Virus record (IMG/VR): IMGVR_UViG_3300005910_000316
Coordinates: 1-37,195 of that record
Origin: a virus
Direction: 5' to 3' (one strand)
Length of the DNA stretch: 37,195 nt
In this document: positions 1 through 37,195 of the stretch, one piece after another
Position numbering within the stretch: the first letter of the stretch is position 1
Layout: the number at the start of each line of letters is the position of its first letter
The notes under the pieces: generated by a model
What the model saw: the letters and a program-made list of their open reading frames with translations, nothing else
The model's database searches: none
Told to the model about the DNA's origin: nothing
Made by a program: the position numbers and the translations under genes

Positions 1-1560
1 GATCCTACAAGAACTGGATATGTATTTAGCGCATGGGATATATCAATTCCAGAAACAATGCCTGCGGCAGTAGTAACAATCCAAGCGATATATACAGCAG
101 AACAACATGTATTAAGCTTTGAAAGCAATGGTGGTTCAGCAGTAACATCACTTACACAAGACACAGGTTCAGCAGTGGTTCAACCAGCTAACCCAACTAA
201 AGAAGGATATGTATTCGATGATTGGTACAATGAAGTTGGATTATCAACAGCTTATGTATTTGATACAATGCCAGCAGTAGATACAGAAATCTATGCAGGT
301 TGGACAGTAGTTCAATATACAATTACTTTTGATAGTAATGGCGGTACAGTTGTAGCACCAATTACACAAGATTTTGGTACAGTAGTTACTGAACCTGCAG
401 ACCCAACTAAAGCAAACCTAAACTTTAGAGTATGGTCTTCAGATGCAGAGTTGACTCAAGAATATATTTTTGATACAATGCCTGCAGAAGACATCACCGT
501 ATATGGATATTGGTATGCCGTTTTAACTTATGATTCAAATGGTGGTAGTGCAGTAGCTCAAGAAAATGTTGGCGAAGGCAATACACCAGTAGAGCCTGAT
601 GCACCGATATTCGCAGGATATACATTTAATGGGTGGTATATAGATGATAATACATTCTTAGTGCCAGTTGATTTTGAAACTCCACTTACAGCAGATGAAG
701 TATTTTATGCTGAATGGGTAGCAGTTCTTTATTCAGCACAATATTTAGATTGGGACGGGGCAGTTCTTCAAACAGCTAACTATGAATTCGGAGCAGATAC
801 AAGCGGAGTAACACCTCCAGCTGAACCAACTAGAACAGGTTGGACATTTACAGCTTGGGATTCAGTAGCACCAGCGACAATGCCAGTTGACGGAATAACT
901 ATTACAGCTACTTATACAATAGATGTAATCACAATGACATTCGATACAGGTGTAGGTTCAGTAGTAGCACCGTATGTTCAAGACTATGGGACACCTGTAG
1001 TAGAACCTACAACTTCTGAAACTGGTTATACATTTGATGGCTGGTTCGAAGAAGCAGAGTTTACAACTCCTTACGTATTTACAACAATGCCTGCGGCGAA
1101 TTTAACAATTTATGCTAAACTTACAGAGTTGGTATTTAATATTACTTACGTAAATGTATTAGGAATAGCACACACTAACCCTGCAACATACGAGTCAGAT
1201 ACGCCTGTCACATTCACAGACCCAACAACAACAACAGGATATACTTTTAAAGGTTGGTATAATGCAATTAGACAAGGAACAGAAGTCTTAGGAACTACAA
1301 CAGAAACTATTGGTAGTTTCACAGTATATGCTCAATGGGTTATGGTAAATAATCAAATTGCAATACCACAAGTTAATGCAGATGACACAGATTTAAGAAT
1401 ACCTACTTCTGCTATCAGAATATCTGGTACAGCAAAAACACCAACAGGATATGCAATGTGGGTTGAAACAGATAGTTATAAAAACTATACGTTCCCTACT
1501 AAATATGTTACATTGGCAGAAGCAGTAGCGGCTAGAGATGCTTTCTTAGCACTATTATAA
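1..1560 (+). CDS. InlB-type repeat surface/adhesion protein (5' partial)
   Basis: The frame is open from base 1, so the gene starts before the window; the ATG at 58 is internal. The product is a chain of about six 60-75 residue repeats of the Listeria-Bacteroides (Flg_new/InlB B-repeat) type. Each repeat shows a 'F-x-SNGG' strand, a 'P-x-x-P' turn, 'GY-x-F-x-x-W' and a closing 'Y-A-x-W' strand. This family forms extended beta-rich stalks on exported proteins of Firmicutes and Mollicutes. The C-terminus (last ~70 residues) is not repeat-like and has no LPXTG or membrane anchor. In a phage it could be a virion-attached adhesin or an exported protein that alters the infected cell; which is inference. 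It ends in TAA just before a strong terminator. Confidence 0.8.
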   Translation, partial: DPTRTGYVFSAWDISIPETMPAAVVTIQAIYTAEQHVLSFESNGGSAVTSLTQDTGSAVVQPANPTKEGYVFDDWYNEVGLSTAYVFDTMPAVDTEIYAGWTVVQYTITFDSNGGTVVAPITQDFGTVVTEPADPTKANLNFRVWSSDAELTQEYIFDTMPAEDITVYGYWYAVLTYDSNGGSAVAQENVGEGNTPVEPDAPIFAGYTFNGWYIDDNTFLVPVDFETPLTADEVFYAEWVAVLYSAQYLDWDGAVLQTANYEFGADTSGVTPPAEPTRTGWTFTAWDSVAPATMPVDGITITATYTIDVITMTFDTGVGSVVAPYVQDYGTPVVEPTTSETGYTFDGWFEEAEFTTPYVFTTMPAANLTIYAKLTELVFNITYVNVLGIAHTNPATYESDTPVTFTDPTTTTGYTFKGWYNAIRQGTEVLGTTTETIGSFTVYAQWVMVNNQIAIPQVNADDTDLRIPTSAIRISGTAKTPTGYAMWVETDSYKNYTFPTKYVTLAEAVAARDAFLALL

Positions 1561-1569
1561 TATAGATTG

Positions 1570-1604
1570 TGCGACTTTTGAATAAAAAGTCGCATTTTTT
1601 ATTA
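1570..1604 (+). terminator. Rho-independent terminator
   Basis: A perfect 10-bp stem TGCGACTTTT / AAAAGTCGCA (1570-1579 and 1585-1594) with a 5-nt loop is followed by a run of six T. It closes the InlB-repeat gene. Confidence 0.9.
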
Positions 1605-1633
1605 TTGACTTTTTTCCAATTTTGTGATATAAT
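1605..1633 (+). promoter_or_regulatory. Sigma-70-type promoter
   Basis: TTGACT at 1605-1610 and TATAAT at 1628-1633 are separated by exactly 17 bp. It lies directly after the upstream terminator and would start the leader RNA of the TasA-like gene at about 1640. Confidence 0.85.
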
Positions 1634-1650
1634 AAATTATAAAGATGTAA

Positions 1651-3310: not shown

Positions 3311-3339
3311 TTGACAATTTTTTAAAATCGTAGTATAAT
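3311..3339 (+). promoter_or_regulatory. Promoter of the RNA/tRNA unit
   Basis: TTGACA at 3311-3316 (a perfect -35 box) and TATAAT at 3334-3339 with a 17-bp spacer: the best-matching promoter in the window. Predicted start is near 3346, so the folded RNA at 3360-3479 and the tRNA at 3501-3578 would be the first things transcribed. Confidence 0.9.
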
Positions 3340-3359
3340 ATTAATGTAAAGATAAGAAA

Positions 3360-3479
3360 TGCGGCGAAATTTAAACAAAAGAGCGAATATTTTATATTTC
3401 GGCAAAACACGTAAATTTCCGTCGTACCCCCGAACTGGCAGTACCAGTTTTGGTATGGGTCAAATAGGGCGGCGCCGCA
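3360..3479 (+). ncRNA. Folded RNA of unknown class upstream of the suppressor tRNA
   Basis: Not protein-like, and richer in G+C than its surroundings. TGCGGCG (3360-3366) pairs with CGCCGCA (3473-3479), closing a 120-nt unit. One arm is AAATTTA (3367-3373) with TAAATTT (3412-3418), capped by CGAATAT / ATATTTCG (3384-3390, 3394-3401). The other arm is GTACC (3424-3428) with GGTAT (3452-3456), holding a 6-bp hairpin AACTGG/CCAGTT (3433-3438, 3444-3449). It begins about 14 nt after the predicted transcription start. It lacks a T-arm and so is not a tRNA, and it does not match 5S rRNA, tmRNA or a T-box leader. Function unknown. Confidence 0.5.
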
Positions 3480-3500
3480 GATTTAGTCTTTATTTTTATT

Positions 3501-3578
3501 GGGAGTATAGTGTCAACTGGACAGCACGTCGGCCTTCAAACCCGTACAGCCCCAGTTCAATTCTGGGTACTCCTGCCA
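3501..3578 (+). tRNA. tRNA-Trp, anticodon UCA (UGA-decoding)
   Basis: A full cloverleaf of 78 nt. Acceptor GGGAGTA/TACTCCT (with one G-U pair), D-stem GTGT/GCAC with a 10-nt loop, anticodon loop CTTCAAA with TCA at 3536-3538, and T-arm CCCAG-TTCAATT-CTGGG. The variable loop is short, discriminator base G73, and CCA is encoded. G73 is the bacterial tRNA-Trp identity base, and UCA reads UGA (and UGG by wobble). Normal acceptor length and short variable arm exclude tRNA-Sec. Oddity: the anticodon stem has only three perfect pairs (CGG/CCG), with C-C and T-T mismatches at positions 31-39 and 27-43. It explains the in-frame TGA codons across the window. Confidence 0.93.
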
Positions 3579-3611: not shown

Positions 3612-4121
3612 ATGGATATTTGATTAATAATAGGAACAATAACTGGGCTTTTAGTAGGTATTACAGGGCTTTTAACATACTTTGAACATAGACGAGATGC
3701 AAAAGAGAATAAAAGAAAAAAAGCTACAATTGAAAAACAAGAGGAATTTAAAAAAGAAATAATAAATGAAGTAACTCATAGAACTGCTGAAGAAAGAGAA
3801 AGTTGTTTAGAAGAGAAATTGATCGATTATCTTGATAAAAAAACATACACTGAAAGACATGAAGAAGTTATTAAAGAAATACATAAATTATCAGGACAAT
3901 TAACCAAACACTACTCAGAATCAATAGAAACAGAAAGACAAAGATTGGCTTCTGAAATAATTAATTTTGCAGAAGATATAAAAAATAAATTGCCAAAATC
4001 TTCAGTCGCATATGAACATATACATATATGTTATAAACGATATAAAGATATTGGTGGAAATCATTATATAGATAAAGTGTTTGAATATATACAAAATAGC
4101 ATGGGTGAAGATGATGTTTAA
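3612..4121 (+). CDS. Small membrane-anchored coiled-coil protein (one TGA=Trp)
   Basis: 169 residues when TGA at 3621-3623 is read as Trp; it begins M-D-I-W-L-I-I-G. Residues ~3-24 form one transmembrane segment. The rest is charged, rich in Lys and Glu, and predicted helical. The start ATG at 3612 is 33 bases after the tRNA, with GACGAGGGCG upstream as a possible ribosome site. With the standard code only a fragment from about 3819 would be called. It overlaps the next gene by 8 bases. The topology (short N-terminal membrane anchor plus a soluble coiled coil) resembles phage lysis accessory proteins, but there is no specific match. Confidence 0.75.
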
Positions 4122-4515
4122 AATTATTAGTTTTATCTGACAATTACCACAGAACTTAATAGGATTATTTTTATACTTGGTATTTGGAACTGCGAAACGC
4201 TATAAATATAAAGGAAAATATGTAGCTCATGCTAAAACAAACAAATGAGGTGCAATAAGTTTAGGAATGTTTATTATTTTCTTTGCTGATTACGGCGATG
4301 GAGAATATTATACAAATACAATAAATCATGAATATGGACATACAAAGCAATCAAAAATGTTAGGTCCATTTTATTTGTTAATAGTTGGATTACCTTCAAT
4401 AATTTGAGCTAGTTGTTTTAAAGGGTATAGGGTGTCTACGGGCGCAAGCTACTACTGATTTTATACAGAGCATTGAGCTGATAAATTAGGTGGAGTTTCC
4501 CGCTGTAAAAAATAA
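4114..4515 (+). CDS. Membrane protein with H-E-x-G-H zinc-site-like motif; all Trp encoded by TGA
   Basis: 133 residues, visible only when TGA is Trp: codons at 4138, 4246, 4405, 4456 and 4474 are all TGA and there is no TGG. Residues ~5-25, ~45-60 and ~85-98 are hydrophobic. The motif N-H-E-Y-G-H-T-x-Q-S lies at about residues 71-80. It is followed by a membrane stretch 'GLPSIIWA' and a 'Y-T-E-x-W-A-D-K-L-G-G' ending. I know this arrangement from small uncharacterised bacterial membrane proteins; H-E-x-x-H suggests a metal site, but protease activity is inference. Every TGA falls where an aromatic residue is expected. It ends TAA next to a terminator. It is the strongest single-gene evidence for the altered code. 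Confidence 0.85.
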
Positions 4516-4570: not shown

Positions 4571-4601
4571 ATATATATAAGATATGGAAATGGAGGTATT
4601 T

Positions 4602-5177
4602 ATGTTAGTTTTATTTAAAAATATGAAACAAGATAATATACTCGTTTTCGATGCCGAATATAATGAAGGAGACTTAATTCAATTTGCTGGGATATTATTT
4701 CGGAAAATAGAAGAAGATATTTTTCAAGTTCATAAATCAATTAATTTCTATGTAAAGTTAGATGGAACAAAAATTAATTATTTTATAGAACGATTTACTG
4801 GTATTACAGACGAGTATTTAGAAGAAGAAGGGATTAACCTTTCAGAAGCAAAAGAAAAAATAGATGAGTTATTAAGAGAATCTAATAACACATTAATAGT
4901 TAGCCACGGATTATATAACGATAGATTAACTTTAGAGAATAATGGTATCGATTTTTATGAAATGGAAGAATGCGTTACAGGACTATGTACATATAATATG
5001 TCCAAAAGAATATTAAAAAGAGATAATCATTTAAAATTAGAAGATGTTGCAAGTGAAGCGGGGATCTTCCTTTCACGCAAGCATAATGCTTTTGATGACA
5101 CCTGGGCAACGGTTGCGGTTTTTAGCCTATTGTGTAAACTTGATGCGGAGGAAACAGATGAAAAAAGTATTTTATAA
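4602..5177 (+). CDS. DEDDh-family 3'-5' exonuclease
   Basis: 191 residues from ATG 4602, chosen over ATG 4584 because GGAGG sits 5 bases before 4602. It has the DnaQ-like exonuclease signature. Motif I is D-x-E ('FDAEYN'), motif II 'SHGLYNDRLTL' supplies the second Asp, and motif III 'H-N-A-F-D-D' has the catalytic His and Asp. Such enzymes remove 3' nucleotides as proofreaders or in DNA/RNA turnover using two metal ions. A second enzyme of this class lies at 33546, beside the polymerase gene; that one is the better proofreader candidate. The end overlaps the next gene by 20 bases. Confidence 0.8.
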   Translation: MLVLFKNMKQDNILVFDAEYNEGDLIQFAGILFRKIEEDIFQVHKSINFYVKLDGTKINYFIERFTGITDEYLEEEGINLSEAKEKIDELLRESNNTLIVSHGLYNDRLTLENNGIDFYEMEECVTGLCTYNMSKRILKRDNHLKLEDVASEAGIFLSRKHNAFDDTWATVAVFSLLCKLDAEETDEKSIL

Positions 5178-5607
5178 TTATGATAAGATGGATTTAGAAC
5201 GAAGAAAATCCTATAAAAAGGTAGTTTTCAATTTGAATGTTCCGAACTTTTATGGAATGGAATTTTTTCAAGAGATTGATAAAAAGATAATAGAGTTTAT
5301 AAATGAACTAGATAAAAATGAGCCAACAGTAATCCAAATAGTTGGTGATTTTAGTTTGGTTAAAAATGAAGAGCCAGCAGATATTGAGGATTTTTTAACT
5401 TCAATCGTGGCTCTATTTATTTCTGCCATTCATATTAAAACGGAAAAATCAGATAGGGAGCATAGATTGGCAGTACCTCAAAAGTTAGCCAATATAAATC
5501 TGCCCTATACTTCAAAATTAAAAATAATAAATTATAAATTAAGACTTCCGATCTTTACGATAGAAATCTTAAATGAAAAGCAAGAAATTTTGCTAAAAAT
5601 ATTTTAG
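5158..5607 (+). CDS. Hypothetical protein
   Basis: 149 residues from ATG 5158, preceded by GCGGAGGAAAC; an open frame extends upstream to 5044 but overlaps the exonuclease gene and lacks a ribosome site. Lys- and Ile-rich, mixed alpha/beta, no recognised motif, no membrane segment. It is cotranscribed between exonuclease and helicase genes. Confidence 0.65.
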   Translation: MKKVFYNYDKMDLERRKSYKKVVFNLNVPNFYGMEFFQEIDKKIIEFINELDKNEPTVIQIVGDFSLVKNEEPADIEDFLTSIVALFISAIHIKTEKSDREHRLAVPQKLANINLPYTSKLKIINYKLRLPIFTIEILNEKQEILLKIF

Positions 5608-5615
5608 GTGATATA

Positions 5616-6107
5616 ATGAAAATATTATTATTAACAACTGTTGAGCCAACTCAAGCGGCTATAGACTATAGAGAATTAACTGATGTAATAGATATTAAAA
5701 ATATTAGTTTAATTTCAATACCATTTTTTGCTGAGATTGATTCAATGAATAATGGGAGATTATATCTTCCTACTTTATTTGCAATGTATAAAGCAATGAC
5801 AGATAAACCAACTCAAAAAAAGATATTTGATAAAAGGCATACATTGATTATTGGGAACTCATATAAGAGTGAGAAGTTTGATATGATTATATCTTTAGGT
5901 GATTCTTCAGAAGATACCTATACAAAAATGATAAGAGATTCACAAGAATATAAAGAGTTTAATTTATTAGTAGAAGCAGAAAAATTATACGACTGGCAAG
6001 ATGCAGAGTTAAACTTTCCTACAATAAGACACGTCATACTATTTTTAGAAGGAGTTATAAAAGATGGAACAATTCAACGAAAAGCAAAAACTAGCAATAC
6101 AATGTAA
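5616..6107 (+). CDS. Hypothetical protein
   Basis: 163 residues; TTAGGTGATATA precedes the ATG. The N-terminus 'MKILLLTTVEPTQAAIDY' looks like a first beta strand plus loop of a Rossmann-like fold, but no nucleotide-binding glycine motif follows. It overlaps the start of the helicase gene by 44 bases. Function not recognised. Confidence 0.65.
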   Translation: MKILLLTTVEPTQAAIDYRELTDVIDIKNISLISIPFFAEIDSMNNGRLYLPTLFAMYKAMTDKPTQKKIFDKRHTLIIGNSYKSEKFDMIISLGDSSEDTYTKMIRDSQEYKEFNLLVEAEKLYDWQDAELNFPTIRHVILFLEGVIKDGTIQRKAKTSNTM

Positions 6108-7332
6108 TGAAACAGAAATAGTTATTATCGCGCCTGCGGGAAGTGGTAAGACTACAACACTTGTTGGCGCAATTACAAGATATAAAAATGAAAATCCTGA
6201 TTCAAAAGTAGTGGCTATTACATTCACCCGTAAAGCCGCAGAGGATTTATCAAATAAATTAATGGAATATACTAATATAAGAACGTCAACTATTCATAGT
6301 TGGGCTTATACAGAATTAGATATATTATCAAAAAGAGTTTCAAAAGAGTTTCCTCAAAATACTTTTAAAGTAAAATTGTTAGAGGAAGATAGAATTAAAG
6401 AAATACTTAATAGTATCATTAAAAATAGAGGTTATAAATACTTAAATATGTATCAATTATATAGTTATGTTATGGGTAATTATAATATTGAGGTTAATGA
6501 TAAACTAAAAAGAGTATTTCAGTCAGTAAAAGATAGTTATGTAGCGTATAAAGAAGATAATGGTTTATATGATTTCACAGATTTACCACAATACTTACTT
6601 GATAAGTTAAATGACTACGGGTTAAACATTGAAAAAATAGATGCATTATTTGTTGATGAGTTTCAAGACGTAGATGAAACACAATTAGAATTATTTAATC
6701 GTGTTCCTGCGCAAAAGAAGTTTTATATTGGAGACCCACAGCAAGCAATTTATATTTTTAGAGGTGCTACTCCAGATGTTTTAGATAAGTTAGATGATTT
6801 TAAAACACACGATTTGAATATAAATTACAGAAGTTATCAAGAGATTGTAGACTTCGCAAGCAGTGTTCAAGATAAAGCAATGATTCAAGGAGTAAATTTC
6901 ACTATTGAAAAAGAATCATCAAGAAGTAATATTGAATGTATTAAAGGATATGGTGGAAATGTTTATACTCTTAATGCTTCTGGAGATGCATATAAAGTAA
7001 ATGAGTATATAAGAGTAAAAGGCATTGATGTCATACGTGGATTTATTATGAGAAATTCAATGATATTGTGTAGAAAAAATAAAGAAGTAAGAGCAATAAA
7101 GAATTTAGGTTATGATAATGTTTCAACAATACATCAAGCAAAAGGGTTAGAATACGAAAGTGTTATTATAACAAGTTTCGAACTAGCACCTGGTAATATG
7201 GAAGAAATAAATATTGCATATGTCGGAATGACAAGGGCTGAAGATTATCTATTAGCGGCTGACTACAACGCATTTATATATCTATTACCAAAAATTATGC
7301 CAGATTATAAAAAAGCAAATAGTTTATTTTAG
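6064..7332 (+). CDS. UvrD/Rep-type superfamily 1 DNA helicase
   Basis: 422 residues. Unwinds DNA 3' to 5' using ATP. SF1 motifs in order: Walker A 'APAGSGKTT' (residues ~23-31), motif Ia 'AITFTRKAAEDL', motif II 'VDEFQDVDETQLELF', motif III 'GDPQQAIYIFRGA', motif IV 'NYRS', motif V 'TIHQAKGLEYESVII', and motif VI 'YVGMTRAEDYLL'. It is shorter than chromosomal UvrD (~720 residues) because the 1B/2B insertions are reduced, as is usual in phages. It starts inside the end of the upstream gene and is followed after 13 bases by the ligase gene. A role in replication or repair is likely. Confidence 0.95.
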   Translation: MEQFNEKQKLAIQCNETEIVIIAPAGSGKTTTLVGAITRYKNENPDSKVVAITFTRKAAEDLSNKLMEYTNIRTSTIHSWAYTELDILSKRVSKEFPQNTFKVKLLEEDRIKEILNSIIKNRGYKYLNMYQLYSYVMGNYNIEVNDKLKRVFQSVKDSYVAYKEDNGLYDFTDLPQYLLDKLNDYGLNIEKIDALFVDEFQDVDETQLELFNRVPAQKKFYIGDPQQAIYIFRGATPDVLDKLDDFKTHDLNINYRSYQEIVDFASSVQDKAMIQGVNFTIEKESSRSNIECIKGYGGNVYTLNASGDAYKVNEYIRVKGIDVIRGFIMRNSMILCRKNKEVRAIKNLGYDNVSTIHQAKGLEYESVIITSFELAPGNMEEINIAYVGMTRAEDYLLAADYNAFIYLLPKIMPDYKKANSLF

Positions 7333-7345
7333 AAGGAGAAAGAAA

Positions 7346-8434
7346 ATGAAGATAAGTAAAGAAGAATTTAGAACAACTTACTGGAATATGCCTGCCATGA
7401 AATACTATGAAGGAGATTTATCAAAACAAAAAGCATTAGATATGATAGATAATAACAATAATAATTGTGTTGCTATGGTTAAGTGGGATGGCGAATGGAA
7501 TATGTCTATTATTGATGAAGATGAAACATTAATGAGAGGTCGTAATAAAACTGTTAGCGGCGACTATAAGAATCGCGCAGATTGGTTACCACATATAACT
7601 AAACAACTACAATCTATTTTTCCTTCTGGAACAGTTTTCTTAGGAGAGGTATCATTTAATGACATAACTAAAACGTCTAAAGACGTTGGAACAATAATGA
7701 GATGTAATGTTAGTAAAGCATTAGAGCGACAACAAAGAGGCCCATTATCATTCCATATTTTTGATTGTCTATGTTATGATTATGAAGACCTTCGGAAAAA
7801 AACATTTGAAGAAAGAATCCAAGTGGTCTACGATAACTATAAGCAAGTAATAGATTATATTTATCCCGTTGCTATTGTAAAAGAAAATTTTATGGATTTT
7901 GCAGAAAAAGTTTGGGCTAAAGGTGGAGAAGGAGTTCTTGTTATTAAAAGGAACGAACCTTATAGAGCTGGCTCAAGAAAAGCTTGGTCAAGTCTAAAAT
8001 TGAAAAAGAAACTTGGAGAAATTAAAGTAAAAGTAATAGACCTTATTGAACCAAATAGAGACCACGAGGGAACTAGTGGAGAAGCTTGGCAATACTGGTT
8101 AATACAAAAGAACATTAATTTCGGTGAAGTTGGTAGAGCTATTTGGATAGATGAAGAATTTTGTAAAACACGCAAAATGATTAAAGACCCATTCCATAGA
8201 ACTTTACCTGTAACTAAGCCATACTGGAATAAATGGAAAAATGGTGTTTTAGTTGAACATGAAGGAAATAGAATTAGAGTAGCGTCTGGATTAGACGATG
8301 CAACTAGAGAATGGCTAGCAACGCCTGAAGCGGCTGAATTGCTAGAGAAAGAAGAATTATTCGTAAATATAACTGGCATGGAAATTACTGACGACAGTAT
8401 CAGACATCCAGTATTTTTAGGAGTTATAAAATAA
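7346..8434 (+). CDS. ATP-dependent DNA ligase
   Basis: 362 residues; AGAAGGAG lies before the ATG. The nucleotidyltransferase core is clear. Motif I is K-W-D-G with the adenylated Lys at about residue 46, then 'LMRGRNK'. Motif III-like 'FHIFDCLCYD', motif IV 'GGEGVLVIKRNEPYRAG' and motif V 'SLKLKKK' follow. The C-terminal ~130 residues would be the OB domain. It seals nicks in dsDNA, for example between Okazaki fragments. An RNA ligase is less likely because motifs IV and V fit DNA ligases. Trp codons are all TGG (about 11), in contrast to the next gene. Confidence 0.9.
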   Translation: MKISKEEFRTTYWNMPAMKYYEGDLSKQKALDMIDNNNNNCVAMVKWDGEWNMSIIDEDETLMRGRNKTVSGDYKNRADWLPHITKQLQSIFPSGTVFLGEVSFNDITKTSKDVGTIMRCNVSKALERQQRGPLSFHIFDCLCYDYEDLRKKTFEERIQVVYDNYKQVIDYIYPVAIVKENFMDFAEKVWAKGGEGVLVIKRNEPYRAGSRKAWSSLKLKKKLGEIKVKVIDLIEPNRDHEGTSGEAWQYWLIQKNINFGEVGRAIWIDEEFCKTRKMIKDPFHRTLPVTKPYWNKWKNGVLVEHEGNRIRVASGLDDATREWLATPEAAELLEKEELFVNITGMEITDDSIRHPVFLGVIK

Positions 8435-8448: not shown

Positions 8449-9489
8449 ATGCAAGTTAAAAAAAGAAATGGAGAACTTGAAGATTTTAATTTAATGAAAA
8501 TCGCCAAGGCAGTATATAGAGCAAGGCTTGATGCGGGTTATGAAAAAGACTTAGAGCGTTGCGTTGATGAAGCAAAAATAATCATGAAAGATATTGTTAA
8601 TGGTAAAACTTTAGATATTGAAACAATTCAAGATGAGATAGAAAAGTATTTTATTAAAAATGATGATATAGAAGTATTTAAACTTTTCACTTTCTATCGT
8701 GAAAAAAGACGACAAGACAGAGCTAATCCATGAGCCAATAATGACGAGCGTCAAGATTTAATACTTCAAAAATATTTACTTCCAACAGAAACTAAAAAGG
8801 AATTTTTAGATAGAATATCACTTGGGAGAACAGACCTTCTTAAGATTTTTAGAAATCGAGAGGGTATTTGAGGTGGAAGAAACCTTTTTGCGATAGGTAG
8901 AGACGGTAATATTACTGGTTCTAATTGTTATGTTGCTGAAAATCCAACAGATAGTTTAGAGGATATTTATAGAGTAGCTTTTGATATTGCTAAAACTTAT
9001 AGTTATGGTGGTGGACAAGGTATGAACTTATCTAATCTTAGACCTAAGGGCGCTAAAGTAAATAATAGTAGTAATACGACACCTGGTGTCATGACTTTTG
9101 CAGAGTTATATTCATTTATTACTTTACACACACAACAAGAAAGTAGACGTGGAGCACTAATGCTTATGTTAAATATTGACCACCCAGATATAATTGATTT
9201 TATTACTTCTAAGCTAGACTTATCTAAAATTACAGGTGCTAATATTAGCCTTGCGATTACGGATGATTTTATGGAAGCATATAATAATAATAAAGATTGA
9301 AATTTAACTTTTGAAACGCCTTATGAGATGATAGTAAAAACTGTAAATGCAAGAGATTTAATGCATTTAATTAGTTACTCAGCTCATACAATGGGAGACC
9401 CAGGATTCATTTACATTGATAATGTTAATAATTATCATTTATTAAGTGAATATGATGAAGTAGAATTTACAGCTACAAACCCGTGTGGT
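8449..9489 (+). CDS. nrdJ: Class II (B12-dependent) ribonucleotide reductase, exon 1
   Basis: Codons 1-347 of a ~728-residue enzyme that reduces ribonucleotides to deoxyribonucleotides. Residues 1-90 are an ATP-cone ('QVKKRNGELEDF...KIAKAVYRA'). Then come 'NP-W-ANNDERQ', 'REGI-W-GGRNLFAIG', 'GSNCYV' (first redox Cys), and 'GGGQGMNLSNLRPKGA'. The exon ends in N-P-C-G, where Cys is the thiyl-radical residue. TGA codons at 8731, 8869 and 9298 are read as Trp; each falls at a conserved Trp or aromatic position. The NPCGEQPL signature and lack of a small-subunit gene nearby favour adenosylcobalamin-dependent NrdJ. With the standard code this gene is split into several pieces. Confidence 0.9.
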
Positions 9490-11747: not shown

Positions 11748-11768
11748 AACAAAAATAAATATTACGGG

Positions 11769-12425: not shown

Positions 12426-12460
12426 TTTTTATTTTATAAGAACTAAATAGCTCTAAAACA

Positions 12461-27430: not shown

Positions 27431-27434
27431 TTTC

Positions 27435-27455: not shown

Positions 27456-27467
27456 TTAAGCATGGTA

Positions 27468-27511: not shown

Positions 27512-27528
27512 CTATTTTGTGTTATACT
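27500..27528 (+). promoter_or_regulatory. Promoter of the GIY-YIG/DnaE unit
   Basis: TTGAAA at 27500-27505, a 17-bp spacer and TATACT at 27523-27528. The -35 lies in the 3' arm of the inverted repeat. Confidence 0.72.
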
Positions 27529-27548
27529 ATATGTATAGAGGTGATAAA

Positions 27549-28499: not shown

Positions 28500-31400
28500 T
28501 TATACTAGTTTACATAACCATACGTAACTGATTATAGTAATTTACGTTTGATTGACTCAATAAACACGGTAGATAAACTTATAGACCGTGCTTTTGAGCT
28601 TAATCTGAAAGGTGTTGCTATAACTGACCATGATGCATTAAGCGGTCATGTAAAAGCAATTAACTATTATAACAAGAAGTATAAAGATGAAGATTTTAAA
28701 CTTATACTCGGTAATGAAATATATCTTACTCGTAGAGATTTAACTTCAGACAATCATGTAAAAGGCGAAAAGTTCTATCACCTATTACTTTTAGCAAAAG
28801 ATAAAATAGGACATAAACAATTAAGAGAAATATCAAGTAAAGCTTGGGGTAGAGCATATTATAAAAACATAATGAGAGTCCCAACTTTCATAACAGACCT
28901 ACAAAAGATTATAGGTAGAAGCCCAGGTCACTTAGTAGCAACTACTGCTTGTTTAGGTGGATATACTGGGCACATGTTCGCAATGAATGACTTTGATAAA
29001 ATTACAGAGTTCCTTTCAACTATGGAAGGAATATTCGGTAAAGGGAATTTCTTTGTCGAATTACAACCGTCAAATAGTGAAGACCAAATAGCATACAATA
29101 AGCATATGATTATTAATCATTGGAAAGATTATCCTTTTGTATTCACAACAGATAGTCATTATCTTAAAAAAGAAGATAGAGAAATGCATAAGAAATTCTT
29201 ACATAGTAAGAGTGGAGATAGAGAAGTAGATGCTTTCTATTCAGCCGCATATCTTATGTCATATCAAGAAGTCGTATCTTATTTTAATACATATATCTCA
29301 ATGCCAAAAATTGAAGATATGAAAAATAATACAAACAAAATACTTAATATGATTGAAGATTATGATTTAAACCATAGCCAAGTCGTTCCTAAAGTTAGAT
29401 ACGAACAAGAAAGATTTGACCAAGAAAAATTAAGAATAGTAAAAGATTTATTCAAAGAGAACAACTTAGATAAATACAAATACCTTAACCTGTTTATTAA
29501 TGGCCATTCAGCCGCGAACAGATACCTAATGGATTTAGTATTTGAAGGTTATTATGACAAGATATATTCTATTTCTTCTGAAATAACGATAGAAGAAAGA
29601 ATGAAAAGACTTGACTACGAATTAGAACAAATCTATGAAACATCAGTAAAAATCGACCAATCACTTTCAGATTACTTTATAACTATGGCAAAAATGATTG
29701 AGATTATTTGGAACGAAGCAGATAGTTTAGTTGGTCCAGGTCGTGGTTCAGCTGCGGGATTCTTAATCAATTATTTGATTGGTATTACTCAGTTAGACCC
29801 ACAAACACAAATGTTATACTTACCGCCATGGAGATTTATTCATGCCGATAGACCAGGGTTACCTGATATTGATGTTGATACTGAATCAACGAAAAGACTT
29901 AAAATATTCAATAAACTACAAAGTTATTTCAATAGTATCGGTGCAGACTTAATTAATGTTTGTACATTTGGGACTGAAGGAAGTAAATCAGCATTAAGAA
30001 CTGCTGGTAGAAGTTTAGAATTAGATGATTCATTCGTTGGATACTTAACATCAATGGTTCCTAGTGAGCGTGGGTTTGATTTAACTCTTACCCAATGTTT
30101 CTATGGTGATGATGAACATAAACCTGTAAAACAATTTTTAGAAGAAATGAATAAGAATCCTGATTTATGGGAACTTGCAATAGCAATTGAAGGATTAATA
30201 ACACGTATTGGGGTTCATGCCGCAGGTGTTTTAATCACGAATGAAGACCCAACCCTACATAGTTCAATTATGAAAACTAGTCGTGGTGTAGTTGTAAGTG
30301 CTTATAATCTTGATGATAGTGAACAAATTGGTGGGCTTAAATATGATATGTTAACTGTGCAAGCACTTGACAAAATTCATGCGACAATGAACTACTTACT
30401 AGATGACCATTCAATACAATGGCAAGGAACATTAAGAGATACATATAATAAGTATCTACTTCCAGCAAATCTAAATTATACTGAACCTGAAATGTGGAAG
30501 AAACTTGGAGATGGAGATATAGTTGATATTTTCCAATTTGATACTGCTGTTGGTTCACAAGCAATTGTAAAAATTAAACCACAAAATATTGGTGAACTAG
30601 CAGTTGCAAACTCTATAATGAGATTAATGTCGCAAGGTGAAATGGAACAACCACTTGAAACATATGTAAAATATAAAAATAATATAAGCCTTTGGTATAG
30701 AGAAATGGAAATGTATGGTCTTTCAGAAGAAGAAATGGATTCTTTAGAGAAGTACTTGAAGCCACTTTACGGAGTAGCAGATTCTCAAGAAGCAGTTATG
30801 CAACTTACAATGGAGCCAAAAATAACAAACTTTAATCTTACTGAAGCAAACTCATTAAGAAAAGCGATTGCTAAAAAGAAAGCAGATATTCTTGCTAAAA
30901 CAAAAACAATGTTTTATGATAAAGGTAACGAATTAGGAACAAGTCTTAATCTGTTAAATTATGTATGGAATGTTCAAATTGGTAGACAAATTGGATACTC
31001 ATTTAGTTTACTACATACAATGGCTTATTCAACAATCGCATTACAACAAATGAACTTATCATATTTTTATCCAGATATCTATTGGAAAACAGCATGTCTT
31101 TCAGTTAATGCTGGGGCGATAAATGAAGAAGATTATTATAATTTAGTTGAAGAAGGAATCATTGAATTAACAGATGAAGATGATGTCAGAACACAAACTA
31201 AAATTCAATACGGAAAAGTAGCATCTGCTATTAGTAATTTCCGCGGCGACATCAACATAAAATTACCAGACATAAATTTATCAAGATTGGGATTTACTCC
31301 TGATGTAAAAGAAAATACTATTCGTTATGGTATTAAAGGTATCTCAAGAGTTGGAGAACATATTATCCAAGAGATAATTTTGAATAGACCTTATACAAGT

Positions 31401-32390
31401 TTAGTTGATTTCTTAGATAAGTTAAATAATGGTAAAAAGAAAAAAGTTATTTCAAAAGAAAAAGTAGTTAATTTGATTAAAGCGGGAGCTTTTGATAAAC
31501 TTGAGGATAAACCAAGAGGAGAGATTTTAATTAATTTTATGCATATGATTGCAGACCAAAAGAAAAATCTTACTTTATCAAACTTCTTAATGTTAATTAG
31601 AAAAAACTTAGTTCCTATCGAATACGAAGAAGAAAAGAAATGTTATATGTTCACGAAATATATTCGTAAGAGTAGATATGATAACTCTTATGTTCTTGAC
31701 GAAGTAGCGCAAGATTACTTCTTTGAGAGATTCCCTAAAGAAAAAACAAAGACTTTAATTCAAGATGAAGAAGAAGTTATTGTAATTTCAGAAAGTTGGT
31801 GGGATAGTGTTTATAATACATTTATGAATAGAATACGTGAATGGTTAAAAATAAATAAAGAAGAATTATTAAAAAAACTAAATAATGAATTATATTTAGA
31901 AGAATATAATAAATATGCACAAGGTGATATTTTAGATTGGGAACTTCAATCAATAAACTTCTTTTATAGTGGACATCCGCTTAAAGATATTGAAATACCA
32001 ATAGAACATACAAAGCTTGCTGATGTAAATGACCCAGAAATAGTTGGATTTTTCCAAATCAAAGGTAAGCAAATTCCTGAGTTTAGACTTTATACTATAA
32101 TCGGAACGGTTATAGATAAAAATAGACAAAATGGTCATGTTACATTATCAACTCCTGATGGAGTAATTGATATTAAATTCTATAAATCACAATTCTCAAA
32201 GCTAGTTCATGAAGACGAAGAATTAGCCGAAGAAAACTATTTTGAAAAAGGAAATCATTTAATGATAACTGGTATGAAACGTGGAGACATCTTCGTACCA
32301 AAAGCATATAAGAAAACGGGTATTGATGCTGTTCTTTTAATGCACCTCGATGAAGATAGAAAATTTATAGGATTTAGAAAGAAAGCATAA
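28483..32390 (+). CDS. dnaE: DNA polymerase III alpha (DnaE-like) with an apparent frameshift near the N-terminus
   Basis: About 1300 residues. The natural start is ATG 28483 (AAAGGTGGTGG upstream), giving MKKINSYTSLHNHT with the PHP H-x-H motif. A TAA follows at 28525, and the rest of the protein continues in the -1 frame from 'TDYSNLRLIDSIN...' to 32390. The PHP domain has 'AITDHDALSGH', 'TTACLGGY' and 'TDSHYL'. The palm has 'GPGRGSAAGF' and the catalytic 'PDIDVDTES', then a helix-hairpin-helix and C-terminal OB ('IGTVIDKNRQNGHVTLS'). Joining the frames needs 5 bases (about 28525-28529) to be skipped or a -1 shift. About 14 Trp codons, all TGG. Confidence 0.88.
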
Positions 32391-33553
32391 TGAAAGTAAC
32401 TATTTGGGATATGGACTTTTATAATAAAAAGTCCTTCCTACCTAATCCAACATTAATGAAAATCTCTTCTTTTCATAAACAACAAGGGCACGTTGTTAAT
32501 TTTGTGGAAGAGAAACATCACCTTAGTATGGCTTATGATATTTTCTATATTATGAGAAAGAAAAGAAAAACACCTAGACCTTCGTCAAAATTAATAGACG
32601 ATAATAGAGTTAGATTACTTGGAGAAAGTTTTAAACCGTTTGATAATTATTGGGAAATAGATGCGGTTATTGCCGCTGTTCGCCCAGATTATATGCTATA
32701 CCCCGATGATGACAAACATAATCCTTACTATAACGCTAGCTTTGTTCAATTCTACCATGATGGAAAATTACTTACGATGAAACAACCATTTGAGAATACT
32801 AAGAAGTATCACAAAAAGACGGTTGTTATAGATGAAGACTTCTGGGAACATTCCGATGAAAATGTGATTTTATGTCTAACTGAGTTAACAACTTATAAAA
32901 ATGTTGCGTTTTTGGCTCCAATAAAGCTTAAAAAAATAATAGATTCAGAAGAAATTAGGAAATGTTTTCTAAAAATTATTTTTTCAAAAGGAACAATTTT
33001 TAAATTTCAAAACAATATAGGTTCTAGCTATAAAAACGCAAGCACCATGTTCGATTTTATTGAAGATTTAAAGGAAGTAAATGAGAAATGTAAGTTAGGA
33101 AGCGTACCTATCAGAATTGTATCTTCTAATCATTGGGAAGATAAACAGAATGCAGTTGACGATTTAGAGCGATGCTTAAAGATTATGTCAGAAGCAAAAA
33201 GAAGAAAGATACATATTATTCTTGTCTCACCTACACGAGAAGATTTTGAAACACCTTATTGGTATTATTTTGAAATCCTGCAATCTTGGAGTATAAATTT
33301 CTATGATAAAAGTTATATCGAACTAATGCTTTATAGTAGTGTATCTAGGTTTAATTTGCCGTGGTATGCTATATTGAATGATAGTATGAAGTGGAGTTTA
33401 CCTAACGCTAATCATTTATTAGCGGTAATTACGCAAAAAAGAGAATGGATAGAAAAATATGGTTATGTACAATGGGGCGAAAAAGAGTTAGAGAAGGAAT
33501 TAATAAATTGGAAAGAAATAGAAAAATTTACAGGAGGCGAGATAATTGATTAA
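32390..33553 (+). CDS. Unknown protein with B12-binding-like N-terminal domain
   Basis: 387 residues; ATG overlaps the polymerase stop. The N-terminus 'MKVTIWDMDFYNKKSFLPNPTLMKISSFHKQQGHVVNFV' is like the cobalamin-binding-type Rossmann domain that starts some radical-SAM proteins of phages. However, no C-x3-C-x2-C cluster motif is present, so it is not a working radical-SAM enzyme by sequence. The remaining ~250 residues are unrecognised. Placed between the polymerase and the proofreading-type exonuclease, and translationally coupled to both. Function not assigned. Confidence 0.6.
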   Translation: MKVTIWDMDFYNKKSFLPNPTLMKISSFHKQQGHVVNFVEEKHHLSMAYDIFYIMRKKRKTPRPSSKLIDDNRVRLLGESFKPFDNYWEIDAVIAAVRPDYMLYPDDDKHNPYYNASFVQFYHDGKLLTMKQPFENTKKYHKKTVVIDEDFWEHSDENVILCLTELTTYKNVAFLAPIKLKKIIDSEEIRKCFLKIIFSKGTIFKFQNNIGSSYKNASTMFDFIEDLKEVNEKCKLGSVPIRIVSSNHWEDKQNAVDDLERCLKIMSEAKRRKIHIILVSPTREDFETPYWYYFEILQSWSINFYDKSYIELMLYSSVSRFNLPWYAILNDSMKWSLPNANHLLAVITQKREWIEKYGYVQWGEKELEKELINWKEIEKFTGGEIID

Positions 33554-34109
33554 AGAGATGCATGTAGATATAGAAACAACAGGTTTTAGTAGAGAATGGG
33601 ATTTTATTTTAGAAATTGCGGCTATTATATATGATTCAGAAACAGATAAAGAATTGACTAGATTCCACGAATATATTAAACCAGGCAAAACTATATCAAA
33701 GAAAATTACAGATATAACTGGTATCACAAACGACCAAGTTAAAAACTGTAGAAATGAGTTTGAAGTCCTAACTGATTACATAGAATGGGTATTTATAAAT
33801 AAACCAGATGTAGAAATAGGACACAATGTAAAAACGTTTGACCATCAATTCTTTGCAAGAAAATGTGAAAAATATAGAATAACTATGTATGATATAGAAA
33901 TTATAGATACTTTAAAACTTGCAAGACAAATGAGTAAAGACGGAAAAATAAAAGTTGCTAATCATAAACAACCAACTATTGCACAGTATTTTAATATAGA
34001 CTACCAAGCGCATAGTGCGATTGAAGATATATTAGCAAACAGAAAAATGTATAAAAAAATGACAGTTGAAACCGGCGTGAAAAGTAAGAGAAAAGAGCTA
34101 GGTTTTTAA
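33546..34109 (+). CDS. DnaQ-like 3'-5' proofreading exonuclease (DEDDh)
   Basis: 187 residues from TTG 33546, chosen because GGAGG lies 8 bases upstream; ATG 33558 would be too far from it. Exo I 'MHVDIETTGF' (D-x-E), Exo II 'IGHNVKTFDHQFF', and Exo III 'HSAIEDILAN' (His and Asp): the DnaQ/epsilon pattern. Its place two genes after DnaE and the lack of an exonuclease domain inside that polymerase suggest it is the proofreading subunit. Confidence 0.88.
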   Translation: MIKEMHVDIETTGFSREWDFILEIAAIIYDSETDKELTRFHEYIKPGKTISKKITDITGITNDQVKNCRNEFEVLTDYIEWVFINKPDVEIGHNVKTFDHQFFARKCEKYRITMYDIEIIDTLKLARQMSKDGKIKVANHKQPTIAQYFNIDYQAHSAIEDILANRKMYKKMTVETGVKSKRKELGF

Positions 34110-34122: not shown

Positions 34123-34302
34123 ATGTCAAAATTAGATTTCACTAATATTAGTGATAAAGAATTATTAGAACTTGAGAAAAATGAAGATTCAGCGATTGGG
34201 AAAAAATTAATTAAAATGATTTATGACCCAGAACTTGGAGAACATTATGAAAAGTTAGAAGAAATCAAGCAAGAAAAAGACCGCAGAAATTTAGATGGCT
34301 AG
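34123..34302 (+). CDS. Small hypothetical protein
   Basis: 59 residues, beginning M-S-K-L-D-F-T-N-I-S; AGAGGTGAT precedes the ATG. Acidic and helical throughout. It fills the gap between exonuclease and resolvase genes and overlaps the resolvase start by 8 bases (TAG stop at 34300), typical of real genes here. Not recognised. Confidence 0.65.
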   Translation: MSKLDFTNISDKELLELEKNEDSAIGKKLIKMIYDPELGEHYEKLEEIKQEKDRRNLDG

Positions 34303-35035
34303 GTTAAGTAAAGCTCAATTCTTAGAAGAACTTGAAAATAAAAATCTGACTTTGGATACACAGTCAGAAGAATATAAAAATATAAGTTCTCCAATTCTCG
34401 TTAACTGTAAGGAAGGACATAGAATAGAAACTAATTTGAAAACAATTAGAAGAACTAATTTTAGATGTCCAGTTTGCGAAGGAGAATCGTCTACAGGATT
34501 GAGTACACCTAATCCGCAATCAGTTCCACCTAAAAAGGGATACAGAATTATTGGGATTGATAATGCGACGCAAAGTTTTGGTTTAAGTATATTCGAGAGT
34601 GGCAAATTAATTTATTATACGTTGTTGACTTTTAGCGGCGATACGACAGCACGATTAAATGCGATAAGAGATGCCATGGAGAATATGATTATACCAGTTT
34701 GAGAACCAGATTTTGTTCAGTTTGAAGACGTGCAATTACAAGGACAAGGATTCGGCAAAGGATTTAAAACTTATGAGGTTTTAGTTAAATTAGTTGGATT
34801 ACTTGAAATGAGTTGTGCTAGATTTGGAATTAGATATAGTAAAGTAAGAAGTAATATCTGGAGAAGTAATTTCTTAATTAATGGAAAGGGTAGGACTGAA
34901 GAAAAGAAAAAATCTATTGCAAAGGTAAAAGAAATGTATGGAGTTACACTTAATGATGATATTGCAGAAGCAATACTTATTGGGAAATACAGAGTTACAT
35001 TACATGAAAAAAGTGAACGAAAAGATTTATTTTAA
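34295..35035 (+). CDS. RuvC-like Holliday junction resolvase with N-terminal zinc ribbon (one TGA=Trp)
   Basis: 246 residues when TGA at 34700-34702 is Trp ('MIIPV-W-EPDFVQFED'). Residues ~30-65 are a zinc-ribbon-like motif: 'VNC-x-E-G-H' and 'FRC-P-V-C'. The RNase-H-like core follows: 'IIGIDNATQSFGLSIF' (first catalytic Asp), 'FVQFEDVQLQG' (Glu), and 'LNDDIAEAILIGKY' (C-terminal Asp pair). This is the order of phage RuvC-type resolvases that cut branched DNA before packaging. With the standard code it would appear as two half-proteins. It is the last plus-strand gene. Confidence 0.85.
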
Positions 35036-35041
35036 TAGAAA

Positions 35042-35075
35042 AAGACTTAGCAAAGGCTAAGTCTTATTTTTTTTA
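35042..35075 (+). terminator. Terminator between convergent gene blocks
   Basis: A perfect 10-bp stem AAGACTTAGC / GCTAAGTCTT with loop AAAG and eight T on the plus strand; A-rich sequence on the other side gives a weaker T-tract for minus-strand transcripts. It separates the plus-strand replication block from the minus-strand structural genes. Confidence 0.88.
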
Positions 35076-35387
35076 TACTTCTACATATTGTGACGCCTGT
35101 GCAGATATACTTTTACCAGTTGCTGTGGCTGTAGCATAAATTGTTGTATACGGAGTCGTAGAGCCTGCAACTATTTCAATAGTTTTTGATAGATAAGTAA
35201 TTCCAGTGTAGTCACTGCCGCCGCTATTAATTGTTGCCGTCACGGTGTCATTATTTTGTACTTTTCAGTAAACGTCATAGAATCTAAATCCATCATAAAC
35301 AATTGAATAGTCTGTTATTGTTGGAGTCGTAGTTGGCTCTTTTTGTTGACTTAATACTCCAAATAAGATAATACTAATTGTAATCAC
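35073..35387 (-). CDS. Small structural/exported beta-rich protein (one TGA=Trp)
   Basis: 104 residues on the minus strand from GTG 35387, stop TAA at 35073. N-terminal hydrophobic stretch 'ITISIILFGVLS', then Thr- and Tyr-rich beta strands ('TPTITDYSIVYDGFRFYDVYWKVQNNDTVTATI...'). TGA at 35267-35265 is Trp; otherwise the gene would be cut in half. It overlaps the fibre gene end by 14 bases. The size and composition suggest a small fibre-tip, head-decoration or Ig-like virion protein. The GTG start is weakly supported. Confidence 0.6.
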
Positions 35388-37195
35388 CTACTATATACCA
35401 CACTGTTGAAGTATAAGCAATTAATGTAACAGCCGCATATACAGTAGAGACGACTTTGCTTGCTGAAGAACCATTTAAAGTTACACCACTACATGCTATT
35501 GTAACATCATCACCAGAAGAATTAAATACAGTTATTTGTGTCCCAGCAGTTAGAGTCGACGGTATTGTTAATGTACATTCAGCATAGGCATTTACAAAGC
35601 CGTTATTATCTGTAGCTGCAAAATTCCTAGCTGAGCCCTGACCGTCTATGTGAGCGTATAATAGTCTGTATCCTGCCTTAACATGTGCTGTAGTTGCAAT
35701 CTGTGTTGTATCTGTACCCACTGCGGCTGTTGGGGCCGTAGGGGTTGAAGTTAAAGCTGCACTTGTAAACATCGTAGCTTTTGATTCATTCGTTACATTT
35801 TGTAAAAGTAAATCTGTTTTAAAGAGTGTTGCTGTAAGCAAACTAGCAACGCCTCCAGTTGTGATTTGAATATAACTAGTTGTAGCTGGAGTAGTTTTTG
35901 TGAATAAATCTTTTCCTACATCTGTACCGCCAAGTGACGTTCTACCTGTCGCCGCTACTAGGCCAGTACTACCACCGTCTCATTTAAGCCTATCTGTGTA
36001 GGCTGTAGACCAATTAGTCTGGTTTGTAGTCGTAGGTATACTGTATCCTGCAGTAAATGATAACGCTAATGTACCAGAACCTGTAATAGGTGAATTCGAA
36101 ACTGTTAAACCGGTAGGCGCAGATAATCCCACTGAAATTACTGTACCAGTATTATCTGTAGGTGTGAATCCTAAAGCCGTAGTGACATCTAATGAAACTA
36201 TAGCTGAAGTATAAGTAGGCACTCCACTATCTGTAACTTTATCATCATTAGTTTGAACTCTGTATTCAAGTTTTCTAAAACTGTCTAATATCGAATCTGT
36301 TGCAATTAAATCTGATGCACTACCGTAAGTTGTAAAGCCAGTTAAAGCCATGGCAATTACTTGAGCATTACTTAACTGTGTGTTAGGTGGTGCAGTAAAT
36401 GCACCATCTCCACGAAGATATTTAGTTGTAGCTGCTGCTGCAGGTACTAAGCCACTATTCCCTTCAGCGATTGCTGAAGAATACTGTATATTTGTAGAAT
36501 TAAAAGCATTACTTCCAAAACCTGAAGTTAAAGTATAATCACCGAGTGCAGTTGTTAAGTCTGATGTTACTAAATTTCCACTTGCTGTCCCTGTTAATGC
36601 TCCTTTAAAAGTTGTTGCAGTAATACTTTTATTATCTCTATTTATAGTTATACCAGTTGTAGAATAAACAGTGTCTCCTGAATTCCATACTATATTGTAT
36701 TCACCAGTTCCACTATTACTTGCATTTACATCTACTGTGTCCGCTCATTTTACATATAAATTATCAACCATTGTCGTTGATGCCACTGTAAACGGTGCTG
36801 TTCCAGTTACTATTGATGATTCAAGTATATTCGCTTTTAATGTACCAGTCGAACTTTGTATTTGGACATTTGTTGCTGAATATAAAGCATTCCCACTATG
36901 CCAAGGTACACTGTAAAATGTTGCATCAGTTCTACCAGTTGCAACTGCTGGGGGGAATGAGGTTCTACTATCAATTCCACTTCTTGAAACCATTGCTACA
37001 TTGCCAGTTCCTGCACCAGTTAATACATAACCATTTGTAAGTGTTGTTAATCCAGTACCACCATGAGTTACTGCAACTGTCCCAGTAACATTTGATGCGT
37101 TTCCTGTTATATTACTAGTAGATTGAATTGGTGTAAACCCTAACCCAGCAACTACTGCTGCACTTGTAACTACTGCAGTTTTAACACTTGCCAAG
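35374..37195 (-). CDS. Tail-fibre-like structural protein (5' partial, two TGA=Trp)
   Basis: At least 607 residues on the minus strand; the start lies beyond the window end. The frame is open across TGA at 36745-36747 ('LYVK-W-ADTVDVNAS') and 35980-35982 ('DRLK-W-DGGSTGLVAATG'), and ends at a true TAG (35374). It shows tail-fibre repeats: 'THGGTGLTTLTNGYVLTGAGTGNVAMV', 'FTPIQSTSNITGNA', 'GDGAFTAPPN', and 'GFTPTDNTGTVISVGLSAPTGLTVSNSP'. These are Thr/Ser/Gly-rich with regular strands. This is the usual make-up of phage receptor-binding fibres or collar fibres. Four or more Trp are TGG. Opposite strand to the replication genes, so probably part of the late structural module. Confidence 0.85.

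Follow-up and report, generated by a model that had tools for sequence, protein, structure and literature searches.

Uneven Distribution of In-Frame UGA, Probably Read as Tryptophan, among the Genes of a Large Tailed Phage and Its Relatives

Introduction

Phages that translate a stop codon in part of their genes are already known. UGA is described as read as tryptophan (Trp), or UAG as glutamine (Gln), mostly in putative late genes of crAss-like phages (Yutin et al. 2021, PMC7886860), and for the UAG = Gln recoding proteomic support is reported (PMC9523058). Here we analyze the use of UGA in a DNA stretch of 37,195 nucleotides, the IMG/VR virus record IMGVR_UViG_3300005910_000316 (the window), which contains a predicted tRNA with anticodon UCA (tRNA-UCA), and in the longer contig to which it belongs. 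The preliminary description of the window rightly stated that recoded phages of this type are known, as published phages with suppressor tRNAs have UGA = Trp in their late genes.

The crAss-like phages resemble the present one in that a single stop codon is recoded, suppressor tRNAs are encoded, and recoding differs between close branches. They differ in that reassignment was deduced there from stops in the genes of the large terminase subunit (TerL), the major capsid protein (MCP), and the portal (PMC7886860); in the present clade, the recoded stop is nearly absent from the capsid gene. They also presumably belong to another terminase clade. The gut phage phAss-1, of the proposed Phassvirus, has a homologous TerL; its description mentions 36 tRNA genes, no matching synthetase, and a dUTPase that is recoded in two of three genomes, and it reports UAG = Gln with CTA suppressors (PMC10607447) in contrast to UGA = Trp and a UCA tRNA here. 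With a TerL of 28% identity and with TGA instead of TAG recoded, the present phage falls outside Phassvirus. The code-4 phages of Borges et al. 2022 carry RF1, a tryptophanyl-tRNA synthetase (TrpRS), and a suppressor tRNA, and, as in the present case, a phage tRNA decodes UGA as Trp in the late genes (as described in PMC10746230).

Partition of TGA among Gene Classes

Positions 3-37,195 of the window are bases 85,370-122,562 of the 123,582-bp IMG/VR contig IMGVR_UViG_3300025362_000004 (G001), with 100% identity over 37,193 bases; the remainder of G001 was examined as pieces L011-L017. G001 is a large tailed phage. We counted TGA and TGG codons in 63 of its genes, chosen by annotation or position; between 29.6 and 85 kb the count covers only ThyX and the nucleotidase, and the open reading frames (ORFs) left out there, together with several tiny ones in the window, include a GIY-YIG protein with 5 TGA and 1 TGG. 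The 25 genes of the structural module and fibres contain 59 TGA and 40 TGG. Similar proportions are found in the genes for ribonucleotide reductase (RNR, in two parts), thioredoxin, dUTPase, RuvC, ThyX, and 5′-nucleotidase (14 TGA and 11 TGG), and the two genes directly behind tRNA-UCA use TGA exclusively (6 and 0). In contrast, the replication cluster of 24 genes has no TGA among 76 Trp codons, and the five genes to the left of the tRNA have none among 25. The replication cluster differs from the structural genes (Fisher's exact test, p = 4e-20) and from the nucleotide-metabolism genes (p = 9e-11), whereas the latter two classes are indistinguishable (p = 0.82). In the recoded genes, TGA makes up over half (about 60%) of the pooled Trp codons. 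Hence, UGA is not reassigned across the phage genome, as had been proposed, nor does the full gene set depend on recoding, as 29 genes of the window are intact under the standard code.

The change from one usage to the other can be abrupt. The ligase gene (0 TGA and 12 TGG) and the RNR gene (5 and 8) are neighbors 14 bases apart. On the + strand, no promoter-like match of at least 10/12 is present in the 2.8 kb before RNR, nor within 2.8 kb upstream of dUTPase or RuvC, and a 10/12 match at 10935-10963 spans the thioredoxin start. Genes that apparently lie on one message thus differ sharply in their use of UGA. RNR, dUTPase, and RuvC would then be co-transcribed with their standard-coded neighbors, and the genes of the replication cluster are presumably early. 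The base following the codon, which could reveal a leaky-readthrough context, is a purine after 65 of 79 TGA and after 107 of 152 TGG, a nonsignificant difference (p = 0.057).

Within the window there are 19 in-frame TGA codons across nine ORFs that together span 2,280 codons. The preliminary description was right about the in-frame TGA codons but gave some 17 in eight genes, with RNR counted once; tRNA-UCA and the insertion in RNR described below are absent from it. Its statement that all supported genes stop at TAA or TAG holds for the 29 TGA-free ORFs, which end at the same position under translation tables 11 and 4 and thus all end in TAA or TAG; the TGA-containing ORFs are code-4 ORFs and so lack internal TAA and TAG by construction. 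With the same proviso for the TGA-containing ones, 52 of the 63 G001 genes end in TAA and 11 in TAG. TAA, TAG, and TGA represent 3.6%, 2.0%, and 2.2% of all triplets in the window. In 19 TGA-free window genes there is no TGA among 7,563 in-frame codons, although the two remaining frames contain 128 and 379, which indicates that TGA is avoided in these genes and not merely rare. Coding density of G001 does not discriminate between codes: a crude caller gives 0.695 with the three stops, and 0.796, 0.820, and 0.738 when TGA, TAA, or TAG, respectively, is no longer a stop.

Recoding in the Terminase Clade

The G001 terminase shares ~25-35% identity with those of the Geobacillus phage E3, the Alicyclobacillus phage KKP_3916, the Lactococcus phage 949, SPbeta-like phages, and phAss-1, and as far as compared the head genes have a common order across relatives. 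The closest relatives of its DNA polymerase III alpha are in SPbeta-like phages (~42%). A bacterial genome collection yielded one relative of the helicase (L139, 32% identity), in a Eubacterium metagenome-assembled genome from yak reticulum, which is insufficient to name a host.

At least 524 viral contigs have a related TerL; in the 80 with the best matches, stops were counted in the aligned stretches of the head genes. Eight contigs have only TGA in frame, 12 only TAG (in L103 a single one in the aligned stretch), and 60 neither; no contig mixes two stops, and TAA is never found in frame. Within recoded phages the capsid gene stands apart. TAG accounts for 2 of its 113 Gln-type codons, but in the gp12-like, TerL, and portal genes together it accounts for 148 of 484 (p = 2e-13); for TGA the shares are 0 of 15 Trp codons and 37 of 63 (p = 2e-5), whereas a gene of 501 amino acids (aa) is intermediate (TAG 16/103, TGA 4/24). 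These counts cover five TGA phages, one of them G001, and eight TAG contigs, after omission of the near-duplicates L081, L094, L119, and L109, of the partial L091, and of L098, L103, and L108, which gave no capsid hit; like the other clade statistics, they ignore kinship. The contrast can be seen in single phages, as L084, L093, and L094 have up to 17 in-frame TAG in TerL and 0 or 2 in the capsid gene. The capsid protein is predicted to have the HK97 fold, as its model (pLDDT 74) matches capsids and encapsulins of the PDB at ~1e-7 and viral capsid models down to 4e-16.

A similar exclusion is seen in the polymerase III gene (36 loci with 37,176 codons: 0 TGA, 0 TAG, and 1 TAA) and in the ligase gene (no recoded stop in 12 loci). 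These counts are from 72 replication loci, in the parts that tblastn aligned. As the set includes near-duplicates and most loci have no known recoding, the pooled zero for polymerase overstates the strength of the pattern. The contrast within a locus does not: in L148, TGA and TGG number 6 and 3 in RecJ, 2 and 1 in primase, 1 and 3 in helicase, but 0 and 18 in polymerase.

The Residue Inserted at UGA

That UGA is read as Trp is supported by the columns of the clade, the dUTPase sites, and tRNA-UCA, in agreement with the preliminary description. When 44 TGA columns from four of the clade's head genes are scored with BLOSUM62, Trp is best (86.0), followed by Tyr (67.4) and Phe (40.8); Trp is also best (214.9) for 44 control TGG columns, and Gln is best (193.7) for 140 TAG columns, as it is where these phages have CAA or CAG. 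The set excludes L081, L094, L109, and L119, and columns of less than half occupancy. At site 134 of the G001 gp12-like protein, 62 of 63 relatives have Trp; at site 64, 40 of 61 have Trp and 19 have Phe.

The preliminary description placed the TGA codons of RNR, thioredoxin, and dUTPase at positions of Trp or another aromatic residue, which is true of dUTPase and only in part of the other two. All three dUTPase sites are Trp in L219 and in L220, two similar records that could represent a single phage, and both sites covered in L125 are Trp, encoded by TGG. In L125, as here, a single small ORF separates RecJ from the dUTPase gene behind it, so that the dUTPase TGA codons would have arisen in situ; this synteny disfavors horizontal transfer of the gene. 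In RNR only some sites are aromatic: homologues have W,L,M,H,F at position 95, F,F,P,P,P,G at 141, and Y,F,W,W,W,F at 284 of the first part, and K,Q,R,E,W,E at 199 and Y,Y,F,F at 317 of the second, and the RNR sites in L212, L214, and L215 are nonaromatic (H, K, E, or a gap). The thioredoxin site is Phe, Val, or Leu in the five alignments shown, never Trp. PDB alignments of RNR, dUTPase, thioredoxin, and ThyX are too distant to settle most residues.

Part of this evidence speaks against Trp. Portal site 108 is Tyr in 60 and Phe in 5 of 65 sequences, and Trp is not among the five commonest residues at TerL sites 161 and 424, portal site 385, gp12-like site 82, and site 193 of the 501-aa gene. 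With phage homologues alone, at the 19 sites with at least three of them, Phe (25%) is more frequent than Trp (19%) and Tyr (11%). By BLOSUM62, these same sites still favor Trp (23.1) over Tyr (18.4) and Phe (16.0), but ten control TGG columns do not separate Trp (4.1) from Tyr (4.2) with such homologues. Altogether, the homologue columns and the tRNA support UGA = Trp; the insertion of Trp and the charging of the tRNA would follow from them.

The UCA tRNA, Its Promoter, and Its Leader

The tRNA-UCA gene lies at 3501..3575 on the + strand (Rfam RF00005, 43.5 bits for a gathering score of 29). It has 75 bases plus an encoded CCA at 3576-3578, an anticodon loop CUUCAAA, G73, no long arm, and a fully paired acceptor stem with one G-U pair. 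When this stem is compared with those of the 40 other phage tRNAs, the closest is that of tRNA-Trp(CCA), which agrees at 13 of 15 positions, the compensated pair 2:71 being the sole difference; tRNA-Leu(UAG) comes second with 12. It is thus a predicted UGA-decoding tRNA-Trp. The 40 tRNA genes, with a transfer-messenger RNA (tmRNA), are at 46-80 kb of G001 (L013:6266-6342, L014:3316-19614), and a second tmRNA match is at L013:6486-6567. A GOLLD RNA (150.4 bits for a gathering score of 150) is found at L015:2645-3156, ~5.7 kb to the left of tRNA-UCA.

The tRNA-Trp(CCA), at position 68738 of G001 (L014:8738-8812), has an A27-C43 mispair and therefore a four-pair anticodon stem. A mispair at 27:43 occurs in 4 of the 40 phage tRNAs, this one among them. 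A tRNA-Trp(CCA) with a four-pair stem is reported to read UGA in Escherichia coli (PMC13092985), so that this tRNA might be a second reader of UGA. By our numbering it also has A24; these features have been linked elsewhere to UGA reading.

Upstream of tRNA-UCA, at 3311..3339 (+), is a perfect sigma-70-type promoter (TTGACA-17-TATAAT); no other 12/12 match occurs in the window. In all, G001 contains 13 promoters of this kind, as against 0.2 expected from 40 Markov sequences. Ten of the 13 lie at 33-45 kb, and those inspected share a similar extended form. Because it groups with the promoters at 33-45 kb, the one of the tRNA is called early-type, a class that would imply early expression. Several of the ten, within these 12 kb (L012, L013), directly precede small genes.

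Between promoter and tRNA, positions 3345..3494 (+) fold into a closed structure of 150 nt (-45.4 kcal/mol, z = -3.9, none of 200 shuffles as stable), which could be a regulatory leader or a ribozyme. Apart from the tRNA, no Rfam family was found in 3300-3900 at E up to 1, and a blastn search with leader and tRNA against G001 and L020-L138 returned, besides the sequence itself, only a 15-base match in G001 and an 18-base match in L059. Theta ribozymes linked to suppressor tRNAs also place a structured RNA beside such a tRNA, but their cleavage site is at the 3′ end of the tRNA whereas the structure here is 5′ of it (PMC10879173). Among suppressor-linked theta ribozymes, that study reportedly found no code-4 case. 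No ribozyme family came up when the window and 3300-3900 were scanned with Rfam, a result that includes no search aimed at the theta motif. Eight related records, seven of them TGA-recoded and the other L125, were scanned with RF00005 for a UCA tRNA: tRNAs were found in two, for Lys and Thr only, and most of these records are fragments.

Recoded and Standard-Coded Genes of the Window

Directly behind the tRNA, on the + strand, are a gene for a protein with a hydrophobic N-terminus (3612..4121, TGA at 3621), with only weak PHROG matches, including one to a holin (E = 0.032), and one for a hydrophobic protein with an HEYGH motif (4111..4515, 5 TGA and 0 TGG), without a Pfam or PHROGs family match. 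A run of standard-coded, presumably early genes follows at 4584..8434 (+), with an exonuclease, a UvrD-like helicase, and the ligase (0 TGA).

The RNR gene comes next and is interrupted. Its first part, at 8449..9489 (+; TGA at 8731, 8869, and 9298), matches the Pfam families ATP-cone and Ribonuc_red_lgC, and its second, at 9817..10962 (+; TGA at 10423 and 10777), matches positions 225-522 of Ribonuc_red_lgC. Reading stops at TNPCGE and resumes as QPLMANGSCNLGSINL 327 nt later, whereas relatives are continuous across the junction (e.g., NPCGEQPLPRNGACNLGSINL), and omission of 9490-9816 restores the RNR family sequence. The insertion, 9490..9816 (+), is structured (z = -6.0 for the fold of 9495-9830) and is probably an intron, although Rfam gave no RNA family for it at E up to 5. 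In group I introns, exon 1 ends in U and the intron in G. As the last base of exon 1 is U (9489) and that of the insertion is G (9816), the element fits a group I-type intron.

Thioredoxin (10962..11276, +; TGA at 11187; Pfam Thioredoxin, 3e-15) has a start that overlaps the RNR stop. Standard-coded genes without TGA then occupy 11289..26274 (+), with a macro domain, PhoH, gyrase B, AAA_24, and proteins that we take to be gyrase A, helicase, primase, and RecJ. The helicase ORF has 527 aa here and 873 aa in the nearest relative (L125:6376-8997), which has an insert of intein size. The dimeric dUTPase follows (26463..27020, +; TGA at 26610, 26619, and 26949; Pfam dUTPase_2, 5.6e-22), then another standard-coded run (27023..34109, +) with a GIY-YIG protein, DNA polymerase III alpha (0 TGA and 14 TGG), the gene at 32390 (0 and 11), and an exonuclease, and then the RuvC-like resolvase (34295..35035, +; TGA at 34700; phrog_159, 2.1e-15). 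On the - strand are a small ORF of the tail region (35073..35387, TGA at 35265), with no PHROG match, and a tail-fibre-like ORF cut by the end of the window (35374..37194, TGA at 35980 and 36745). The latter has 712 aa in G001 and matches only a PHROGs family of unknown function, "tail fibre" being an assigned name.

At the opposite end of the window, positions 58-1560 encode a phage-borne protein with five matches to Listeria-Bacteroides (InlB-type) repeats (PF09479, 2.3e-63). A c-di-GMP-I riboswitch (49.1 bits), here in a phage, is found at 1642-1716, and just downstream of it is a gene for a small secreted-looking protein without Pfam match (1747-2220).

Discussion

We propose, with a probability of about 0.75, that this is a code-switching phage in which a Trp-charged tRNA-UCA delays the genes containing UGA, while early or abundantly expressed genes are kept free of it. 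The host would use the standard code, and the replication genes would be translated at once. Host TrpRS would charge tRNA-UCA with Trp, and the tRNA would accumulate and compete with host release factor RF2 at UGA, so that messages containing UGA would be read through only after its build-up, UAA and UAG remaining terminators. The genes needed earliest (polymerase, ligase) and those of highest output (MCP) would be kept UGA-free, and RNR, dUTPase, and RuvC would be delayed or damped at translation and not at transcription. UGA may thus be a selective brake in some genes and not the code of the whole genome.

Several observations sit uneasily with this proposal. The tRNA-UCA is mispaired at 27:43 and 31:39, and ARAGORN reports no tRNA at 3501-3575. 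The grouping of its promoter with those at 33-45 kb speaks against a switch that is made late; the delay would then need some other source, such as tRNA accumulation or the structured leader. Unlike the Borges code-4 phages (PMC10746230), G001, which may be a fragment, yielded no RF-1 family protein (PF00472) or TrpRS (PF00579), and two TGA-recoded relatives show no UCA tRNA in their whole records, both of which may also be fragments. Finally, replication genes of other relatives do contain recoded stops (21 TGA and 10 TAG in RecJ, 7 TGA in primase, 5 TGA in helicase, and 10 TAG in AAA_24), so that the exemption of replication genes is not general.

One alternative is tolerance without regulation, in which, after a UGA-reading tRNA was acquired, TGA replaced TGG by drift at sites where delayed or partial decoding is cheap. 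The pattern would then reflect selection against inefficient decoding, with early and abundant proteins kept free of TGA, and UGA would have no role in timing. This alternative would account for an avoidance graded by expected output (capsid near zero, 501-aa gene intermediate, TerL and portal high), for the share of only ~60% TGA in recoded genes, and for the promoter type of tRNA-UCA; it fits poorly with the sharp change within one run of genes, from ligase to RNR and again at polymerase, and with nucleotide-metabolism genes that are recoded as much as tail genes. We give it appreciable weight but less than an even chance. We are equally tentative about an extension of the code-switching proposal, in which recoded stops would act gene by gene as translational gates and dosage limiters, graded in the same way under UGA = Trp and UAG = Gln within one terminase clade: within co-directional and apparently co-transcribed runs, RNR, dUTPase, RuvC, and the low-copy head genes would be marked for a later translation limited by the tRNA, and polymerase, ligase, and MCP left unmarked.

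The other explanations concern the code and its reader. That UGA is read mainly by tRNA-Trp(CCA), with tRNA-UCA decayed, is suggested by the A27-C43 mispair of the former, given that such tRNAs are reported to read UGA in E. coli (PMC13092985), and by the two stem mispairs of the latter. Yet a 27:43 mispair is not special among the phage tRNAs, and tRNA-UCA keeps its paired acceptor stem, G73, CCA, and a perfect promoter, which makes this unlikely. More improbable still is a uniform code 4 in the phage and in its host alike, of the kind found in Mycoplasma or Spiroplasma. TGA is indeed never a terminator in the 29 TGA-free window genes, and of 27 INPHARED phages for which table 4 is predicted, 22 are reported to infect these two genera (PMC11210395), but a uniform code 4 is hard to reconcile with genes in which none of 76 and none of 25 Trp codons are TGA when ~60% are elsewhere, or with the 60 unrecoded and 12 TAG contigs among the 80 best-matching TerL relatives examined, out of at least 524. 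A residue other than Trp, such as Gly as in Gracilibacteria, Cys, or selenocysteine, has some appeal at TerL site 142, where 23 of 76 sequences have Cys; as Trp, Tyr, and Phe lead the pooled TGA columns with Trp best, the dUTPase sites are Trp, and tRNA-UCA combines G73 and a Trp-like acceptor stem with the lack of a long arm, we consider it hardly credible.

A code-switching phage is a known type, and one pattern found here is possibly general. The near-absence of the recoded codon from the capsid gene, in both recodings, and from DNA polymerase is apparently less known. In our literature search we did not meet this exclusion, nor recoded nucleotide-metabolism genes inside standard-coded clusters, though both may be in Borges et al. 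2022. The clade bears on what a phage gains from recoding a stop codon: it holds contigs with no recoding, with TGA recoding, and with TAG recoding, and shares its head-gene order, so that timing and tolerance can be tested against each other gene by gene. The near-absence from the capsid gene and the sharp changes between neighbors are candidate predictors of the time or level of expression, and the assignment of a single code throughout misdescribes the biology of such genomes.

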